30,359 bases of DNA from the IMG/VR virus record IMGVR_UViG_3300034107_000235, positions 1 through 30,359 of that record. One strand, written 5' to 3'. How positions within the stretch are numbered: position 1 is the stretch's first letter; the number at the start of each line of letters is the position of its first letter. Position numbers and translations under genes: made by a program. The DNA is from a virus. A model generated the notes under the pieces. It did no database searches, was not told the DNA's origin, and worked only from the letters and a program-made list of their open reading frames with translations. Below, piece by piece: positions 20,018-27,355 of this stretch.

Positions 20018-21342
20018 GCCTCATTGAACCGCTCCCCGATCCGATCAGGCGTGACCAGTACGGGCGATACAAGGTCTTGCCACTAAAGGGCAAGAAACCT
20101 GTCGGCTACTCGAGGGCAACCACGATTGCCAAAGCACTCGATGACACAAGCAACCTCGCTGCGTGGGGTAAACGCATGACAGCACTTGGTCTAGCAGTGC
20201 GGCCTGATCTGCTCGCAATGGTCCAAACAACTGATGCGGCAGATAAGAAAGCACTCGACCGCCTGTGCGAATCGGCATCCGAGGCTGGTGGGGCGACAGC
20301 ACGCAGAGACCTCGGCACCGCACTACACAAAATGTTCGAGCAGTCATGCATCACTCCTGGCTACCAGCCACCGGCCACATACGCAGCAGACATCACAGCG
20401 ATACACCAGACGTTGCGTAAAGCAGGCTTGCAGGTAGTCGATGAATGCTCAGAGCTGATGGTCGTGATCGACAAACACCAGATCGCAGGCATGGCAGACC
20501 TCATCGTCAAACGCATCAGCGACGGCGAGCTGTTCATCGCAGACCTCAAAACCGGTAGCTCGGTGCAATACGGTGCGCTCGGATGGGCGATACAACTATC
20601 GATCTACGCCAACGCCGACAACATCTACATCCAAGGCGCAGCAGTAGACGGCTCAGAGGATCTCCGGGCACCAATGCCCTTGGTTAACAAGCAACAGGCG
20701 TTTATCATTCATTGCGAACCCGAATCAGGCAGCTGCGACCTCTACACGCTCAACATCGAACGTGGTTTCCAAGCGTTGGAATGTGCGATTGAGGTGCGTG
20801 AGTGGCGCAAGGCACGACAACTGCTAGTACCATTTAAAGGTGCTGGCGGTGCGGAGTCAGGGGCTGTGGTGGCCCATGATGGACCCGCCGCCAGCACTGA
20901 TGGTCTGCCAGACGCTGTGAGCACGGCAACTGGCAGCAGTGATGGTGTGGGAGAGGTGACCGCCTCCTCGGAACCTTCTTCCACACCACACATCACCGAT
21001 ACCGAGGCTGCACTCGTCGAGCGTGACCACATGCTTAACCTTCGCAAACTCTGGTTACTCGAACGCATCCGCATCATCGGAGAACAAGGCTTCATCACCA
21101 CACTCCAGGCTGAATGGCCCGACAACTGCGCAGGACCAAAAGCGGTACGCAGCCGTCAAGTCAAATGGAACATCGCCGAAACCGCTGCAGTCGTCAAATG
21201 CGTTGACACAGTAGAAATGGCGCACGATCTGCCATTCGGTGCAACAGACCCCGAACTAGTACAACGTCTCAAGCTCGAGGAAACAGAACGATTCGTGAAA
21301 GCTGCGACAGGCGCAGGACTCACCAACCAGACCGCAAATTAG
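20014..21342 (+). CDS. PD-(D/E)XK nuclease (RecB/Cas4-like recombination exonuclease)
   Basis: This 442-residue protein is probably a phage recombination exonuclease. The core lies at about 95-205: LGTALHKMFEQ (H105), QIAGMADLIVKR (D162), ELFIADLKTGSS (D177, K179) and WAIQLSIYANAD (Q194, Y198), the order of active-site residues expected of RecB/Cas4-type nucleases. There is no CX2CX2C cluster of Cas4. After about 270 comes a Ser/Ala-rich linker and a helical C-terminal region (HMLNLRKLWLLERIRIIGEQG onward) of unknown role. The gene is followed by an SSB-like gene and a Hjc-like resolvase, which suggests a recombination module for genome processing or repair. Confidence 0.8.
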   Translation: MSLIEPLPDPIRRDQYGRYKVLPLKGKKPVGYSRATTIAKALDDTSNLAAWGKRMTALGLAVRPDLLAMVQTTDAADKKALDRLCESASEAGGATARRDLGTALHKMFEQSCITPGYQPPATYAADITAIHQTLRKAGLQVVDECSELMVVIDKHQIAGMADLIVKRISDGELFIADLKTGSSVQYGALGWAIQLSIYANADNIYIQGAAVDGSEDLRAPMPLVNKQQAFIIHCEPESGSCDLYTLNIERGFQALECAIEVREWRKARQLLVPFKGAGGAESGAVVAHDGPAASTDGLPDAVSTATGSSDGVGEVTASSEPSSTPHITDTEAALVERDHMLNLRKLWLLERIRIIGEQGFITTLQAEWPDNCAGPKAVRSRQVKWNIAETAAVVKCVDTVEMAHDLPFGATDPELVQRLKLEETERFVKAATGAGLTNQTAN

Positions 21343-21345
21343 CGG

Positions 21346-21364
21346 GCAGGCCACAGTGGCCTGC
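21346..21364 (+). terminator. Palindrome after the nuclease gene
   Basis: GCAGGCCAC-A-GTGGCCTGC is a 19-bp perfect palindrome that starts four bases after the stop codon of the nuclease gene. As RNA it makes an 8-bp stem with a 3-nt loop. No T-tract follows. It may slow transcription, protect an RNA end, or bind a protein. Confidence 0.55.
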
Positions 21365-21405
21365 ACACAACACACCAACACATCAACACGAAAGCAGGAC
21401 AGGCA

Positions 21406-21834
21406 ATGGACATGAAGGAACTAAACAGGGCAGCAACCACCAGTGGTGGTAAGTGGGTGAAGCTGCGAACCAAAGAGGACGGCAGTTTTGAGGGCACACT
21501 TGTAGCGTTCGAGTCACGGCCACGCACCGACATGGAAGGCAACGTGGTGATGAAGCGTGGCACTGACACTCCTCGCACAGAATGGTTGCTTACACTGTCG
21601 GTGCCGTTGGCTGAGCGTGAAGGGCCCGACGATGATGGCACACGCAAAATGCCATGCAACGAAGCCATGCAATCAGCGATCTCACAGGCCATCAAAGCGT
21701 GCGGTGAGCCTGCGAAAGAGGGCGACACACTCAAGATCGCAGTGAGCGCAGATCCTGTAGACAAGATGCGTCAGGCGACTTATGTGGCACGGTGGACACC
21801 CGGCAAACCCATTATCGACATCGACGAGTTCTGA
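21406..21834 (+). CDS. Putative ssDNA-binding-like protein with acidic tail
   Basis: This 142-residue protein lies between two recombination nucleases. Its sequence fits a beta-barrel: WVKLRTKEDGSFEGTLVAFESRPRTDMEGNVVMKRG, RTEWLLTLSVPLAE, DTLKIAVSADP. The end, GKPIIDIDEF, is acidic with a terminal aromatic residue, as in the C-terminal tails of single-strand binding proteins that recruit partners. No sequence similarity to SSB is obvious, so this is inferred from shape and location. An alternative is an annealing helper of the exonuclease. Its stop overlaps the next start (TGATG). Confidence 0.5.
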   Translation: MDMKELNRAATTSGGKWVKLRTKEDGSFEGTLVAFESRPRTDMEGNVVMKRGTDTPRTEWLLTLSVPLAEREGPDDDGTRKMPCNEAMQSAISQAIKACGEPAKEGDTLKIAVSADPVDKMRQATYVARWTPGKPIIDIDEF

Positions 21835-22265
21835 TGTCTGGTGCCGCCAGCAGGAACCGTGGGGCTAACGCCGAGCGTGCTGTGGTGAACTACCTCAAAG
21901 CGGAGGGGTGGTTACACACAAGGCGGGTTCTTGCTGGCGACGGGCACCAACACTCAGATATCGAATGCTGGAGCGGGATCAGCATCGAAATCAAGGACCG
22001 GACATCGAGCTCGTGGCCTTCATGGCGTGAGCAAGCAGTCACACAGGCTCGACCAGGAGACCTGATCGTTGTAACCCGTAGGACTCGTGGCACACCTGAT
22101 GTCGGCCAATGGCCCGCACAGATGCCACAACGTGATTACATCTGGATCGGCGGCAAAGGCTTGTTGCCATTCCCATGCCCACGGTTAAAAGAACTATGGG
22201 TAGAAACCACATTCGCAAACGTCTGCACCCTTATCCGTGCGGCAGAACAGGACAAACAACGATGA
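21834..22265 (+). CDS. Hjc-like Holliday junction resolvase / PD-(D/E)XK endonuclease
   Basis: This 143-residue protein has a PD-(D/E)XK order typical of Hjc-type resolvases: NRGANAERAVVNYLKAEGW (E14), HQHSDIECW (D42) and ISIEIKDRTSS (E52, K54), followed by a helix with QAVTQARPGDLIVVTRR. Phages use such enzymes to trim branched DNA before packaging. The C-terminal WVETTFANVCTLIRAAEQ is helical. The TGATG overlap at 21832-21836 sets the start; an upstream start at 21792 lies inside the previous gene. The next gene begins at the ATGA overlap. Confidence 0.78.
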   Translation: MSGAASRNRGANAERAVVNYLKAEGWLHTRRVLAGDGHQHSDIECWSGISIEIKDRTSSSWPSWREQAVTQARPGDLIVVTRRTRGTPDVGQWPAQMPQRDYIWIGGKGLLPFPCPRLKELWVETTFANVCTLIRAAEQDKQR

Positions 22266-22609
22266 ATCACATCGGAGACGAACAAGAAACACCCGACCTA
22301 CTCACAATGAGTTTGCAGATGCTGTCAGACATGGCACCCGCAACCAACATTGCAGAATGGTCGCATGAGATGGGCGTTAAAAATAAGACACTTAGACCAT
22401 TTCACACTCATATGATCTGGGGACATGACCTAGTGCTCGACTGGGGACTGATTGCCCTACGCATTAAGGAATGCTCGAACACTCCAGGGCGGGCACCGAC
22501 ACCAACCGAGATCAAAGGGTATGTGGTGCGCAGCGTCGAGCTCACCCATGCGGAGCTTGCAGAAGCCATTGAGGCTTACCGGCCACCACAACAACAGATG
22601 GCAATCTGA
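22262..22609 (+). CDS. Unknown early protein
   Basis: This 115-residue protein begins MNHIGDEQETPDLLTMSLQMLSDMAPATNIAEWSHEMGVKNKTLRPFHTHMIWGHDLVLDWGLIALRIKE and ends with a helix TEIKGYVVRSVELTHAELAEAIEAYRPP. The centre has W and H residues, with no zinc ligand pattern. I recognise no family. It is coupled by ATGA to the resolvase and by TGATG to the next gene. Confidence 0.55.
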   Translation: MNHIGDEQETPDLLTMSLQMLSDMAPATNIAEWSHEMGVKNKTLRPFHTHMIWGHDLVLDWGLIALRIKECSNTPGRAPTPTEIKGYVVRSVELTHAELAEAIEAYRPPQQQMAI

Positions 22610-22923
22610 TGAGCACCAAAAAATCATCAGCACGCACCATGCAAGCAATCAAAGCAACGGTGTACCAAGAGGTAGAAGAGATCGACTTTTACCACACGAA
22701 CGCAAAGATGGTCGATGTCAGGGTGCGTGGCGATGACGTAGGCCATATGAGTTTCAGTATCGGCAAAGCGGTGTTCTTCCTCGAGGGGACCGGCACCAAG
22801 CTGCAAAAATGCCAAGCAATCCGAGACATCGCACAAGCACTCACCACCGCAGCGGACCTGCTCGAAGCAGAAATCGCTGCGGCCGAAACGTACTTCTCAG
22901 AGCAACTGCTGTTAGGTGACTGA
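22609..22923 (+). CDS. Small protein, paralogue of the 19739 gene product
   Basis: This 104-residue protein contains NAKMVDVRVRGDDVGHMSFSIGKAVFFLEGTGTKLQKCQAIRDIAQALTTAADLLEAE. It shares with the 19739 product the order KM-V, GH, F-x-x-G-x-A-x-FF-x-EG and a terminal helix. It starts at the TGATG overlap. Function is unknown. The two copies at different places in the early region suggest that they have separate targets or dosage roles. Confidence 0.62.
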   Translation: MSTKKSSARTMQAIKATVYQEVEEIDFYHTNAKMVDVRVRGDDVGHMSFSIGKAVFFLEGTGTKLQKCQAIRDIAQALTTAADLLEAEIAAAETYFSEQLLLGD

Positions 22924-23347
22924 CCTCATGCGCCTACCAGTACGGGCTGAGATGATCGACCACCTAACCATCATCGTCGAAGACTGCAACAAACAGGCCC
23001 ACTGGCGTAAACACGCTGCGTGCCGTGGCATGGACACCAACCTGTTCTACCCAGAACCGGGATACAACGGGCACAGAAAACAACGGCAAGCGCAAGCGGT
23101 ATGCGCCGGATGCCCTGTACAAGCCGAATGCTTACAAGCGCTTGGTCGTTACAGTGGTGGGATTGTCGGCGGGCAAACCACAGCACAACGCACCAAAGGC
23201 CACATGATCAAAAAGAACCTCGACCTACTCCAACTACGGGATCACATCATCAACACCGAACCGTTGGAGATCGCAGCGCACGATCTTGGCATCAGCGCAC
23301 AATCAGTAAAAAAGCACATCCACCGCCACCCCGAAGGAGTCGCATGA
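22916..23347 (+). CDS. WhiB-family Fe-S regulator (first copy)
   Basis: This 143-residue protein carries the WhiB cluster: AACRGMDTNLFYPE (C36), AVCAGCPVQAECLQAL (C63, C66, C72) and GGIVGGQTTAQR in place of the usual G-[VI]-W-G-G turn. The four Cys should bind a [4Fe-4S] cluster; WhiB proteins bind the host sigma factor and change transcription. A basic C-terminal region with IAAHDLGISAQSVKKHIHRHPEG could contact DNA. The start is uncertain: GTG 22916 overlaps the previous gene by 8 nt, and ATG 22928 is an alternative. The tryptophan of the turn is lacking, which is a deviation from most members. Confidence 0.82.
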   Translation: MTDLMRLPVRAEMIDHLTIIVEDCNKQAHWRKHAACRGMDTNLFYPEPGYNGHRKQRQAQAVCAGCPVQAECLQALGRYSGGIVGGQTTAQRTKGHMIKKNLDLLQLRDHIINTEPLEIAAHDLGISAQSVKKHIHRHPEGVA

Positions 23348-23487
23348 AAGATCAAAAGCTCGAGCACTGCCACCAATGCGGCAAACCTGTCACACCCGGC
23401 ATCGATCACGACACAGCGAACATCAACGGCATCCGTTGGTGGTGCCCAGAACACTGCCCACAATGCCGAGAGTCCCCTAACAGATGA
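23344..23487 (+). CDS. 47-residue zinc-ribbon protein
   Basis: This short frame overlaps the WhiB stop (ATGA) and the next start (ATGA). It encodes MKDQKLEHCHQCGKPVTPG with C9 and C12, then WWCPEHCPQCRESPNR with C34, C38 and C41. The paired CxxC-type groups suggest one bound zinc ion. Position between two WhiB genes suggests a regulatory partner or assembly helper, which is inference only. Confidence 0.6.
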   Translation: MKDQKLEHCHQCGKPVTPGIDHDTANINGIRWWCPEHCPQCRESPNR

Positions 23488-23915
23488 CACCTGAAGAATG
23501 GGACATCGCAGCATGCAGATACCACCCAAAAGAACTGTTCTTCCCAGACCGAAACAACTTCGGTCAAGTATGGGACCGGGCCCGCAACATCTGCCAAGAA
23601 TGCCCAGTCAAAGCCGCATGCCTCCAAGACGGGCAACACGAGGTGTTCGGCATGTGGGGAGGGCTTAGCCCAGCAGAAAGGGGATACGGTCGCTCAAACA
23701 ACGCAGCACCAATGAGTACCGAACGCATCGCAGCCTTGCTCGAACACGTTGGCAAACCCATGACAGTCAACCAGGTATACCTAGCCTTACATCCGCATTA
23801 CACGAAACACGCCACACGCAACGCCTTAACCAGACTCGCACAAGGCGGCATCGCCACCCGCACCTCCAACGTCCAACCTGAACCAGACACCTACCACTGG
23901 AACCACCACACATGA
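23484..23915 (+). CDS. WhiB-family regulator fused to winged-helix-like domain (second copy)
   Basis: This 143-residue protein has the WhiB pattern AACRYHPKELFFP (C11), NICQECPVKAACL (C37, C40, C46) and VFGMWGGLSPAERGYG (GMWGG at 56-60), the conserved turn. The rest differs from ordinary WhiB proteins: residues about 79-127 (STERIAALLEHVGKPMTVNQVYLALHPHYTKHATRNALTRLAQGGIATRTS) look like a winged helix, with three helices and a short wing. It may thus bind both the sigma factor and DNA. ATGA overlaps tie it to the zinc ribbon gene and the PrimPol gene. The fusion is based on my reading and would need structure prediction. Confidence 0.78.
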   Translation: MTPEEWDIAACRYHPKELFFPDRNNFGQVWDRARNICQECPVKAACLQDGQHEVFGMWGGLSPAERGYGRSNNAAPMSTERIAALLEHVGKPMTVNQVYLALHPHYTKHATRNALTRLAQGGIATRTSNVQPEPDTYHWNHHT

Positions 23916-25990
23916 CCACAGACCCGCACAACACAGCCAACGAATACGCACAACGAGGATGGCGAGTAGTGCCCATTGTGCCAGGGGAGAAACGACCAGC
24001 GCTCAACCAGTGGCAACACCAAGCAACAACGGACACCACAACCATTGACCGATGGTGGATGGGTGAACACTCCGGCTGCGGAGTAGGCATCGCAACAGGA
24101 GAACAATCAGGCATCTGGGTCTTAGACATCGATGACCGAGACGCACTCTACGAACTGGAGAAGGAACACGGTGAGCTACCACCAACGCTCACATCGATTA
24201 CAGGTAGCGGCGGTGAGCATCAGGTGTACCTGTGGCCGGCAGATGGGCGCACCATCCACAACAGCGCCAGCGGGTTCATACAAGGCATAGATGTCAGGGG
24301 CGAAGGCGGCCAGATCGTCGCACCACCAACCATCCACCCCAACGGCAACCCATACGAATGGGACGAACAATGCACAGAAATCGCTGCAGCACCCGAATGG
24401 CTACTAGCCCTCATCTGCGACAAAGACCCACAACCCACCACCACACAACCCACCCCGAGCACCACCACCACAGACAGACCAGGAGACCTATGGGCACAGC
24501 AGACCGACTGGGCATACATCCTCATACCCGACGGCTGGCAACTCTCACACACCGACAACAACGGCGAACGCTACTGGGTACGACCCGGCAAAGAACCACG
24601 AGACGGCATCAGCGCAACCACAGGGCACACAGCAAACGACAACCTGCACGTGTTCACAAGCTCAGTACCCAACCTCAAAGCAGAAGAAACATACACAAAG
24701 CTCGGATACCTCGCAGCCATACACCACAACCACGACCACGCTGCAGCGGCACGAGCACTAGCAGCACAAGGATTCACCACACCACAACCAGACCTCAACA
24801 TCCTCAACCACCTCACCACAACCGCCAGCGGTGAACCAGATGCGAACCCGCTTGCCCCATACCTCATCGACTGGCAAAGCTTCTGGACCACAGACCACAC
24901 CGAAACAGAATGGCTACTCGAACCCCTCTTCGCAAAAGGCAGGGCACACGCAATCTACGCCGGAGCCAAAGTCGGCAAAAGCTTTGTCACACTCGCAGCA
25001 TGCGCAGCCCTAGCAACCGGCCAACCATTCCTACGCAAACCCCAAACAAACCCACAACACGTACTCTACGTCGATTACGAGATGACACCAACAGACCTAT
25101 ACGACCGCCTCACAGAATTCGGATACGAATCCACAATCTTCGACCACCTCCACTACGCACAACTACCAGTCATCGCACCCCTCGACACCTCACAAGGCGG
25201 CATCGCACTCTGCCAAGCCGCCCACGCAGTCGGCGCAGAAATAGTAATCATCGACACCACAGGCAGAGCAGTACAAGGCGAAGAAAACGACGCAGGCACC
25301 TACCAAGACTTCTACCGCCACACAGGCATGCAACTCAAACGCATGGGCATCACATGGGCACGCCTCGACCACGCAGGCAAAGACACCACCAGAGGCCAAC
25401 GAGGATCATCAGCAAAGAACGACGACGTAGACATAGTCGTCAACCTCACACGCACACCAACCGGCATCACATGGACAGCAACCCACAGGCGCATGTCCTG
25501 GTACCCAGAACAATCAGACATCACCATCGCAGAACTAGACGACCAAGCCACCTTCACAATGGAAGGCGGCAACCTCGAACAGTTCGAGCTCCACATCTTC
25601 GACCTCTCAGACTGGCTCGACGCTGAAGGAATACCAGCCAACGCACCCATCCGAGAATGCTGGGCACACACCAAAACAAACGGACCCGCAGGCACCCTCA
25701 AAAAGGATGTACAAGCGGCAGTCAGGTACCGCAAATCGGCACAGTATTCGCTGCGAAAAACAGGGCGGGACAAAGCTCGGGACACGCCTCCGGACAAAAC
25801 TGCGGGACAGACTGCGGGACACTCTGGGACAGAACCCGAAACCCATACAAACAAAGGCGGGACAGAGAGCGGGACACTGCGGGACACTATTGAGCAGGCA
25901 CAGCGGGACACTCTGTCACCCCGTAGGGGGGACAGAGTTCACGGCCCACAAACCGAACACCCAAACCAACCCACATACGAAGAGTTCTAA
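23912..25990 (+). CDS. Primase-polymerase/helicase replication protein
   Basis: This 692-residue protein is probably the phage replication enzyme. Residues about 8-165 form a bifunctional primase-polymerase (AEP) domain: GWRVVPIVPGEKRPAL, WVLDIDDRDAL (D72, D74), GEHQVYLW (H103) and GIDVRGEGGQIVAPPTIHPNG. A Thr/Pro linker (about 172-190) leads to a RecA-like helicase/ATPase: Walker A AGAKVGKSF (350-358), LYVDYEM and Walker B AEIVIIDTTGR (442-452), then RLDHAGKDTTRGQRGSSA. The pairing recalls plasmid and phage RepA-type initiators. The last 90 residues are low in complexity because the DNA there carries the GGGACA repeats. The ATG overlaps the upstream stop (ATGA). Confidence 0.86.
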   Translation: MTTDPHNTANEYAQRGWRVVPIVPGEKRPALNQWQHQATTDTTTIDRWWMGEHSGCGVGIATGEQSGIWVLDIDDRDALYELEKEHGELPPTLTSITGSGGEHQVYLWPADGRTIHNSASGFIQGIDVRGEGGQIVAPPTIHPNGNPYEWDEQCTEIAAAPEWLLALICDKDPQPTTTQPTPSTTTTDRPGDLWAQQTDWAYILIPDGWQLSHTDNNGERYWVRPGKEPRDGISATTGHTANDNLHVFTSSVPNLKAEETYTKLGYLAAIHHNHDHAAAARALAAQGFTTPQPDLNILNHLTTTASGEPDANPLAPYLIDWQSFWTTDHTETEWLLEPLFAKGRAHAIYAGAKVGKSFVTLAACAALATGQPFLRKPQTNPQHVLYVDYEMTPTDLYDRLTEFGYESTIFDHLHYAQLPVIAPLDTSQGGIALCQAAHAVGAEIVIIDTTGRAVQGEENDAGTYQDFYRHTGMQLKRMGITWARLDHAGKDTTRGQRGSSAKNDDVDIVVNLTRTPTGITWTATHRRMSWYPEQSDITIAELDDQATFTMEGGNLEQFELHIFDLSDWLDAEGIPANAPIRECWAHTKTNGPAGTLKKDVQAAVRYRKSAQYSLRKTGRDKARDTPPDKTAGQTAGHSGTEPETHTNKGGTESGTLRDTIEQAQRDTLSPRRGDRVHGPQTEHPNQPTYEEF
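25766..25937 (+). repeat. GGGACA iteron-like array with terminal hairpin (candidate replication origin)
   Basis: Eleven copies of (C/G/T)GGGACA or CCGGACA start at 25766, 25778, 25790, 25803, 25815, 25825, 25858, 25870, 25880, 25904 and 25928. The spacings are 12, 12, 13, 12, 10, 33, 12, 10, 24 and 24, close to one or two helical turns. The copies fall in all three codon phases of the host gene, so the selection is on DNA and not on protein. The array makes a local G-rich patch in a G-poor region. It ends in CTCTGTCACCCC (25911-25922) facing GGGGGGACAGAG (25926-25937), a 12-bp stem with one mismatch that includes the last copy. Confidence 0.75.
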
Positions 25991-26002
25991 GGACACCAAA
26001 CC

Positions 26003-26248
26003 ATGCCCAACTGTCAATGCCAATACCGAGGTGACCTACTCACACAAGGACACCGAGACCACCACCGCAACTGGGAACAAACACAACCCACAACCAGACA
26101 CCCAACCACCTCCACCACAACAGCAATCGAGATCACCCAACTCATCATCGCCATCGACCAACTCACCGCAGCCCTACACGGCGGCCCACCACCACCGCTC
26201 ACACCAGGAGCACAAGCAATCATCGCCAACCACAGGAGCCAACAGTGA
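26003..26248 (+). CDS. Small early protein, unknown
   Basis: This 81-residue protein starts at ATG 26003 with AAGGA at 25990-25994. It begins MPNCQCQYRGDLLTQGHRDHHRNW, with two Cys and several His, and continues with a Thr-rich stretch, a helix (IEITQLIIAIDQLTAALHGG) and a Pro-rich end. A GTGA overlap couples it to the next gene. No family is recognised. The base composition is extremely C/A-rich, as in its neighbours. Confidence 0.5.
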   Translation: MPNCQCQYRGDLLTQGHRDHHRNWEQTQPTTRHPTTSTTTAIEITQLIIAIDQLTAALHGGPPPPLTPGAQAIIANHRSQQ

Positions 26249-26769
26249 AAGACCTCGACCAGCTCACAGCCCTAGCCAACACCATCACACGCATCCTCGA
26301 AGCCGGCGCACAAGCACTCATCGAACAACGCAGTGGTTTCCCAGCCGGTGGCACAGGCGGCACACCAAGCTCAACCAGTGACCGCACAGGCAGGCTCGCA
26401 ACAACACGAGCAGACAAAGGCCCAGAACGATCAGACCAAGACTACGAACGAACCATACAGATCCTCATTGAGCTCGAGGACATCCTCAACCGAGCACGAC
26501 CACCCAAACGCACAACCATCCACATCCAAGCAACCACCACACAACACGACGATGGCTGCAGATCATGCGCACGAGTAGGCACATGGACCGCACGAACCAA
26601 GAACAACCCCATGTGCCGCACATGCAACGAGCTCATCCTCCGCATACAAATGCAACACAACATCACCCTCGAGCTACCACCAACCACACTCGTCGACCGC
26701 CAACGCCAAGGCCGCCGCATCACCACACGAGAAATCAACCAAGCACTCCACGAAAATAAAACACGGTGA
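26245..26769 (+). CDS. Putative zinc-finger protein
   Basis: This 174-residue protein starts at a GTG with a CAGGAG site about 7 nt upstream, overlapping the TGA before it. After an N-terminal helix (DLDQLTALANTITRILEAGAQALIEQ) and a Gly/Ser-rich linker there is a second helix (YERTIQILIELEDILNRAR). Residues 105-127 are CRSCARVGTWTARTKNNPMCRTC, a CxxC-x15-CxxC pattern expected to hold zinc. The end is basic (VDRQRQGRRITTREINQAL). It may bind DNA or join a replication complex; the function is not known. Confidence 0.6.
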   Translation: MKDLDQLTALANTITRILEAGAQALIEQRSGFPAGGTGGTPSSTSDRTGRLATTRADKGPERSDQDYERTIQILIELEDILNRARPPKRTTIHIQATTTQHDDGCRSCARVGTWTARTKNNPMCRTCNELILRIQMQHNITLELPPTTLVDRQRQGRRITTREINQALHENKTR

Positions 26770-26845
26770 TAACCTTGACGATCGCCACCACCACATGTAA
26801 CGCTTACGGCAGTCTCACCACACCCAGCCTAGAAGCAGGACAGTG
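26770..26845. other. Short intergenic region with weak TTGACG element
   Basis: This 76-nt gap contains TTGACG at 26775-26780 and TGTAAC at 26796-26801, 15 nt apart. The spacing is short and the second hexamer is poor, so a promoter here is only possible. AGCAGGACAG before 26846 serves as ribosome site for the HNH gene. Confidence 0.25.
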
Positions 26846-27121
26846 ATGGCATCCAAAGGCCGCAGCACTAGGCAGTGGAAGACCATCAGCCTTACCGTCT
26901 ACGCAGAAGAAACACATTGCTGGCTATGCGGACGAGCAGTAGACCACACCATCCAACCAAGAACACGATGGGCACACAGTGTCGATCACATCATCCCAAT
27001 CAGCCAAGGCGGCGCACCATACGACCGTGCCAACCTCCGCCTCGCACACCACGGCTGCAACAGCCGACGCTCCAACAACCGAGCGCAACCACAACGACCA
27101 GGCGCAACACGCCAATGGTAA
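26846..27121 (+). CDS. HNH endonuclease
   Basis: This 91-residue protein has an HNH fold: CWLCGRAVD (C25, C28), HSVDHIIPISQGG (H44, D47, H48) and NLRLAHHGCNSRR (N63, H69, C71, N72), the order of a Cys-framed HNH nuclease. HNH proteins next to terminase genes commonly act with TerL in genome cutting at the packaging site. A GTG start at 26843 is possible, but ATG 26846 is better placed to the AGCAGGACAG ribosome site. Its stop is followed by the DnaA-box region. Confidence 0.85.
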   Translation: MASKGRSTRQWKTISLTVYAEETHCWLCGRAVDHTIQPRTRWAHSVDHIIPISQGGAPYDRANLRLAHHGCNSRRSNNRAQPQRPGATRQW

Positions 27122-27355
27122 AACCTCACACACAGTGAGATAGTTATCCACAGATAACCTGCCCACCCCACGAAAGTTATCCACAGAAACCTGTGAACTT
27201 TTTTTAGGGGTGGGTGCTTGAGTATCCCGCTGCTTTTACAGGCCGATTTTTCTCTCCACAATTTCTCAACGTTATCCACAGATTTCTGGGGATAACCTCG
27301 GAAGCTTAAAAAGGTTGTCCACAGGGCCTGTGGATTGTTTCGGAAGGTGGTCACG
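27122..27355. promoter_or_regulatory. DnaA-box cluster, origin-like intergenic region
   Basis: This 234-nt non-coding stretch contains TTATCCACA at 27144-27152, 27177-27185 and 27272-27280, and TTGTCCACA at 27315-27323, all in the same orientation. TTATNCACA is the E. coli DnaA box and TTGTCCACA is the usual actinobacterial form. Weak reverse sites occur at 27287-27295 and 27329-27337. Small dyads overlap boxes (GTTATC-CACA-GATAAC at 27143-27158 and TCCACAG-GGC-CTGTGGA at 27318-27334). A T-rich stretch (27231-27270) between boxes could unwind. Confidence 0.82.
27173..27205 (+). terminator. Hairpin with T7 tract inside the DnaA-box region
   Basis: CACAG (27182-27186) pairs with CTGTG (27191-27195) and AAAGTT (27173-27178) with AACTTT (27196-27201), with a 3-nt bulge on the left arm and a T7 tract at 27199-27205. 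It is a plausible end for early transcripts. DnaA box 2 (27177-27185) overlaps the left arm, so bound DnaA and termination may interfere. Confidence 0.6.

Follow-up and report, generated by a model that had tools for sequence, protein, structure and literature searches.

The replication gene and its neighbourhood

We analysed a stretch of 30,359 bases that makes up a complete IMG/VR contig (the window). Its replication gene encodes a multidomain protein whose parts are listed in Table 1 together with the other features of the locus. Pfam matches identify the PrimPol part (Prim-Pol, E 8.7e-44) and the helicase part (AAA_25, E 2.8e-21); the latter also matches RSF1010 RepA in sequence (PDB 1g8y, E = 6.9e-10) and 1nlf on fold (Foldseek, E 7.6e-11). 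An SF3 helicase is absent from this protein, its fold being that of AAA_25/RepA, and no RepC-like protein was matched among the neighbouring ORFs scanned; a predicted HTH is fused to the helicase instead. In an AlphaFold model of residues 307-617 (mean pLDDT 86.8), the C-terminal end consists of three HTH-typical helices, at 250-265, 274-284 and 291-310 in the numbering of the model, and since the model contains no wing we name the domain HTH only. A protein-based search of phage records gave 305 records, none of which covers most of the protein; the best was Streptomyces phage mu1/6.

Table 1. Coordinates of the replication gene, its parts and the neighbouring DNA elements in the window
Feature	Position	Strand	Description and basis
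Replication gene	23912..25990	+	692 aa: PrimPol, RSF1010-RepA-like helicase (AAA_25), C-terminal HTH, linker/tip; ORF
PrimPol domain (aa 9-163)	23936..24400	+	Retained in L008, where the rest is swapped
Block exchanged as a unit in L008	24829..25965	+	Helicase, HTH, array and hairpin; DNA homology
RepA-like hexameric-type helicase domain (aa 329-492)	24896..25387	+	
Tri-helical HTH (aa 556-616)	25577..25759	+	Predicted reader of the repeats; AlphaFold model
Candidate iteron array	25767..25934	+	Ten GGGACA and one CGGACA; motif count
Hairpin	25910..25938		12 pairs, one mismatch; loop GTA; last repeat in the 3' arm
C-terminal tip QPTYEEF	25966..25990	+	Conserved; retained across the L008 swap
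Four exact DnaA-box-like nonamers (TTATCCACA x3, TTGTCCACA)	27144..27323	+	Intergenic, before the terminase genes

Two WhiB-family genes (22916-23347 and 23484-23915) lie immediately 5' of the replication gene. The early genes at 21000-27100 display a very strong strand asymmetry, with AT skew up to 0.5 and GC skew down to -0.33, which is not seen in the late genes.

A repeat array and a hairpin at the 3' end of the gene

The first repeat lies 7 bp past the end of the code for the last HTH helix, so that the array adjoins the gene of its presumed cognate initiator; all repeats are confined to the final 225 bases of the gene. Exact copies of GGGACA start at 25767, 25779, 25804, 25816, 25826, 25859, 25871, 25881, 25905 and 25929, all on the + strand, and the entire window holds 13 copies on both strands together. 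A preliminary description of this DNA had counted eleven copies; ten are exact, while the eleventh, CGGACA at 25791, has a single mismatch and reads GGGACA in the relative L006. Its further observation that the copies occupy all three codon phases is correct (1, 1, 2, 2, 0, 0, 0, 1, 1, 1 for the ten exact copies), and the G-rich island it had seen in a G-poor region is apparent in the G content: the array has 33%, compared to 22% for the remainder of the gene and 18% for the DNA downstream. The count also withstood the codon-preserving shuffles that the description had named as a way to refute it: shuffling synonymous codons over the whole gene (n = 20,000) gave a mean of 1.2 and a maximum of 6 GGGACA, and shuffling the tail only gave a mean of 4.0 and a maximum of 9, so that the observed 10 was never reached. 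The array thus shows short direct repeats above chance, as iteron origins do. Its successive steps are 12, 12, 13, 12, 10, 33, 12, 10, 24 and 24 bp, which are multiples of approximately 11.5 bp, a period chosen post hoc; we rejected a phasing of the repeats on the 10.5-bp helix, as the steps are out of register with it.

The array finishes in the hairpin ACTCTGTCACCCC(GTA)GGGGGGACAGAGT, which includes the last copy as the description had claimed, and whose one mismatch is a single A-G. Its predicted DNA fold has -12 kcal/mol (z = -5.7), and none of 200 shuffles was equally good.

Conservation of the array among close relatives

All ten exact copies are present with the same spacing in each of four close relatives (L003-L006, protein identity 91-95%). 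When only codons encoding the same amino acid in all five sequences are considered, synonymous variation is 1/49 at codons 618-676 and 0/12 after codon 676; in five earlier segments of the gene it amounts to 25-47% (13/52 to 50/107). The loss of repeats in close relatives, the other outcome that the description had named as a refutation, is thus not observed: the repeats are kept and synonymous change is suppressed there, which, along with the shuffles and the three codon phases, bears out the earlier proposal that DNA rather than protein is under selection. The array is a real, conserved DNA-level element.

In L004, the loop-closing pair of the hairpin is T-A instead of C-G, both of its bases having changed; this keeps the stem and turns SPRRGD into SPCKGD (RR to CK). 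The two-sided compensatory change is a single event among the five sequences.

Another relative, L008, has exchanged a whole block. Its DNA is 86% identical to the window up to 24828 and 91% identical from 25966 on, and between these points it carries another AAA_25 helicase, AAGTGCGG-type repeats and another hairpin, while the PrimPol half, the last residues of the protein and the downstream gene are all retained. This pattern of exchange is what an initiator-and-site cassette would predict.

Homologous helicase genes carry other repeats

Two scans for homologs provided 53 loci from viruses and 43 from bacterial genomes. In homologous helicase genes, a short repeat array and a GC hairpin follow directly after the C-terminal HTH, with letters that differ by lineage: the repeat is GGGGACCA in L007 (50% identical), CGGACCA in L009 (48% identical) and CCTGCCC in gp21 of Streptomyces phage mu1/6, and each of these three has a GC hairpin that includes all or most of its own repeat. 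Variants of GGGACA account for the majority of the repeats, namely GGGACC, GGAACC, GGAACG, GGAACA, GGTACA, GGGGCA and GGGTCA. In a motif-free test on a fixed stretch, covering 200 nt on the 5' side of the stop and 150 nt on its 3' side, a repeat excess (p <= 0.02) was found at 38 of 84 helicase gene ends as against 23 of 725 other ORF ends from the same loci. A significant array is therefore missing from about half of the homologs in this fixed region, which counts against reading the array as an iteron origin; measured from the end of the HTH, the excess is present in 55 loci. The exact motif of a locus occurs in its own hairpin in 23 of 60 loci, compared to 136 of 2593 for the motifs of other loci, a ratio that is descriptive because many loci are related, and in which the own-motif count is lowered by an automatic hairpin choice that at times took a stem other than the one in the array.

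In some relatives, the array lies wholly or partly past the stop codon. The gene stops directly after the HTH in L185 and soon after it in L148, both with the array 3' in non-coding DNA; the majority of copies are past the stop in L149, and the array spans the stop in L192 and L146. The motif can also occur in both orientations (6+/6- in L192, 4+/8- in L149). Arrays past the stop codon again indicate that the array is a DNA element.

Arrays found without reference to the gene

We also scanned IMG/VR blindly for GGGACA(4-8)GGGACA(4-8)GGGACA, which gave at least 120 loci. Among the matches listed, the 3' end of a RepA-like helicase ORF is no more than 450 nt from the array at 24 of 120 loci, compared to 0 RepA-like helicases among 837 ORFs elsewhere in these loci (p = 4e-24); of the ORFs near arrays in these matches, 23 of 45 have a Pfam match to AAA_25 and 7 to Prim-Pol. 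A small number of the loci come from near relatives of the window (L078 and L006 are on one contig), but kinship does not explain the association. The other 96 loci among the matches listed have no RepA-like helicase at the array; there may be other replication genes, ordinary coding repeats and chance matches among them. Exact DnaA boxes were not found near the arrays among the matches listed.

Motif and HTH vary together

Across 47 non-redundant loci, similarity of the motif tracks similarity of the HTH when helicase similarity is held constant (partial r = 0.26, 0 of 2000 permutations), a correlation that is modest and partly phylogenetic. Among 290 columns, the top rank for motif positions 3 and 6 goes to HTH columns, but the ranking is only suggestive because helicase columns follow closely, the motifs were registered by hand and the lineages are not independent. 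The near-sisters L220, L221 and L222 have the motifs GGAACA, GGGACA and GGTACA, in which a single base differs; L220 shares 86% identity with each of L221 and L222 over the helicase, a value that falls to 56-63% over the HTH. The HTH of the window has diverged from the RN[DE]-type helix found in a number of other GGGACA bearers. This counts against the iteron reading, and for this reason we do not claim a simple recognition code.

A candidate replication site within its presumed initiator gene

We suggest that the array and hairpin are a candidate cis replication site, either an iteron-type origin or a component of one, that is recognised by the protein of the gene in which it lies; we estimate the probability of this at roughly 70%. 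The GGGACA iterons would be bound by the HTH that follows the helicase domain, the RepA-like helicase would thereby be loaded at the iterons, and the linked PrimPol would prime the strand so opened, perhaps at the GC hairpin. A short conserved C-terminus lies beyond the site and is presumably the reason why the ORF runs through it, in which case the iterons would also encode a flexible linker.

The iteron reading had been put forward in the preliminary description, and it is supported by the exchange of the whole unit in L008, by the non-coding arrays and by the blind scan, in which the arrays were associated with genes for RepA-like helicases. The codon-level constraint, the shared anatomy and the repeat excess in homologous genes, the motifs found in their own hairpins and the tracking of the HTH by the motif speak for it as well. 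The partner protein named in the description, a PrimPol-helicase, needs amending: the RSF1010-RepA-like helicase with its C-terminal HTH is constant, while PrimPol is not, as the mu1/6 gene with a similar array carries a DnaB-N domain instead. We found nothing in favour of WhiB binding to the array, which had also been considered.

The description missed the cluster of DnaA-box-like nonamers further downstream, which could be a part of the origin or a rival to it. On the latter account the true start would be the DnaA-box cluster, with the array as an accessory site of the helicase protein for copy-number or incompatibility control, in analogy to P4 crr or P1 incA. We regard this as unlikely, although it is the strongest of the alternatives. 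The four nonamers are the only exact matches to TT[AG]TCCACA in the window, they lie between an HNH gene and the terminase genes, and L003, L004 and L006 have DnaA-box-like sites in the same intergenic region. The cluster also coincides with a mildly A+T-rich stretch (56% at 27190-27275) and with the cumulative GC-skew minimum at 27279, and its position together with that of the minimum, 1.2-1.4 kb 3' of the array, counts against an origin at the array itself. So does the base composition: A+T is 38% in the array, 49% in the following 61 nt and 46% in the window, so that no A+T-rich melting region adjoins the array, and here most iteron origins differ. Against a separate start at the boxes, DnaA-box-like sites in the five diverged relatives L135, L136, L137, L141 and L170 are found within 250 nt of the helicase stop, adjoining the array, which makes boxes and array look like parts of one origin, and most array-bearing homologs have no exact DnaA box nearby. 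Furthermore, the skew switch falls where the genome may end: the homologous stretch breaks off at 27237 for L004 and at 27225 for L006, in each case because the contig of the relative ends, and a cos site or terminus may therefore lie at 27122-27345 too. As the skew minimum is 1.3 kb off and coincides with this possible end, GC skew is not taken as support for the origin. The DnaA-box cluster may thus be a second part of the origin. Given that the array is G+C-rich and that the boxes are at 27144-27323, melting of the DNA may start there, with the array as a loading or control site; taken as a separate account, this is the one rated unlikely above. The same intergenic region (27122-27345) contains inverted partial copies besides the DnaA-box-like nonamers, and both GC and AT skew switch abruptly in it.

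It is distinctly less probable that the array is an operator or an mRNA element that regulates the replication operon. It does lie in a presumably transcribed region just 5' of the next gene, and the hairpin would form in RNA also; on the other hand, homologs have the motif in both orientations, as noted for L192 and L149, the array tracks the helicase gene in the blind scan, a promoter/terminator scan detected no promoter-like or terminator-like sites at the array, and there was no Rfam match in the region scanned.

The chances are very slim that the repeats are a protein feature, that is, a low-complexity GT/RD/AG linker whose repeats stem from amino-acid selection or slippage. The tail does resemble a disordered linker, and the extreme C-terminus is conserved (QPTYEEF here, a zinc-ribbon-like CxxC segment in Streptomyces homologs), but the three reading phases and the near absence of synonymous change speak against it, the compensatory change in the L004 hairpin alters two residues, and arrays past the stop in other homologs already contradict it. 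A packaging (pac/cos) or recombination site is just as improbable, despite terminase genes 1.4-1.6 kb downstream in the window, given that mu1/6 has no annotated terminase gene within ~3 kb of its array, that the blind-scan arrays associate with the helicase gene and that the genome end, judging by where the contigs of relatives stop, would rather be near 27.23 kb.

Comparison with known origins

In RSF1010, RepC binds iterons and the ssi sites are hairpins; the lambda ori is located inside the O gene. The candidate site resembles the RSF1010 oriV in that the helicase of the window gene is in the RepA family; it differs in that primase, helicase and DNA-binding domain are in one protein with the site inside its own gene, whereas RSF1010 has a separate RepC initiator, to which none of the neighbouring ORFs scanned here has a match. 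RSF1010 employs the RepA helicase, an AEP-type primase (RepB') that reads dedicated ssiA and ssiB sites, and RepC (PMC4538821). Like pRN1 ORF904, the window encodes a PrimPol-helicase-DNA-binding protein with a stem-loop at the 3' side of the gene, although ORF904 has an SF3 helicase and the window an AAA_25/RepA-type helicase with candidate iterons. The essential stem-loop of pRN1 is just 3' of the PrimPol-helicase gene, is ~100 nt long and non-coding, and varies in sequence while its structure is kept; its authors found no iterons, and proposed a similar 3' stem-loop for a phage (PMC4234260).

In the pri-rep-ori module of PICI/SaPI elements, the origin immediately follows the 3' end of the initiator gene and contains iterons, whose sequences are given element by element (PMC6092414). 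The candidate site of the window likewise lies at the 3' end of its presumed initiator gene, but in PICI/SaPI two iteron sets flank an A+T-rich region, while the window has one G-rich array with a hairpin and a RepA-type helicase. In iteron plasmid origins such as that of RK2, iterons occur together with DnaA boxes and a melting region (PMC4980987). The window shares with RK2 and lambda O short direct repeats next to the gene of an element-encoded, here presumed, initiator, and it has DnaA-box-like nonamers, which lie 1.2-1.4 kb from the array. In those systems initiator and helicase are separate proteins, whereas the window gene joins the presumed reader to the helicase in one polypeptide. 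The window therefore combines parts of RSF1010, pRN1 and PICI with a RepA helicase-HTH fusion and a site embedded in code. The literature searched contained no description of this arrangement, which is weak evidence, as most subscription journals are outside its coverage.

A possible portable cassette

More tentatively, we speculate that RepA-like helicase, HTH and 3' iteron-hairpin could form a portable cassette that occurs in many phages and prophages, with either a primase or a DnaB-N domain at the N-terminus. The letters of the iterons and the recognition helix of the HTH might then change together fast enough for an initiator-origin code to be read, and in many members the origin would be protein-coding, as a linker to a zinc ribbon or tip. 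Joint change of initiator and origin specificity is hard to study, as the majority of pairs either do not differ at all or have diverged too far. The homologs described above offer dozens of natural pairs, including the near-sisters L220, L221 and L222 and the clean swap in L008, and the differing repeat letters make the matching of a starter protein to its start site testable. If the array is such a site, this would provide a readable replication site for phage genomes with this type of RepA-like helicase, and a striking case of one sequence that serves as both replication site and code.

What precedes the helicase-HTH-array unit varies: in the window it is PrimPol, whereas mu1/6 has DnaB-N and L009 an unrelated N-terminal half. 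This variation was noted at L009/L135 and L010/L167.

Homologs with the array inside the ORF have further protein sequence beyond it. Of the 49 homologs in which the HTH is followed by 60 residues or more, 36 have a CxxC...H/C zinc-ribbon-like segment, while the window's own group has a short conserved C-terminal tip. In the Streptomyces homologs (among L151-L226), the last ~40 residues form a conserved zinc-ribbon-like CTxCxxPL...RGYxTHxxC segment beyond the array, which would make the array the code for a linker between the HTH and this segment. Short acidic-aromatic C-terminal tips (AELF, EELF, DDLF, LEDF, DLGLF, YEEF) occur at L192, L194, L195, L139, L137 and L138 and at 25966-25990 of the window; we take them to be reminiscent of sliding-clamp-binding or SSB-tip peptides.
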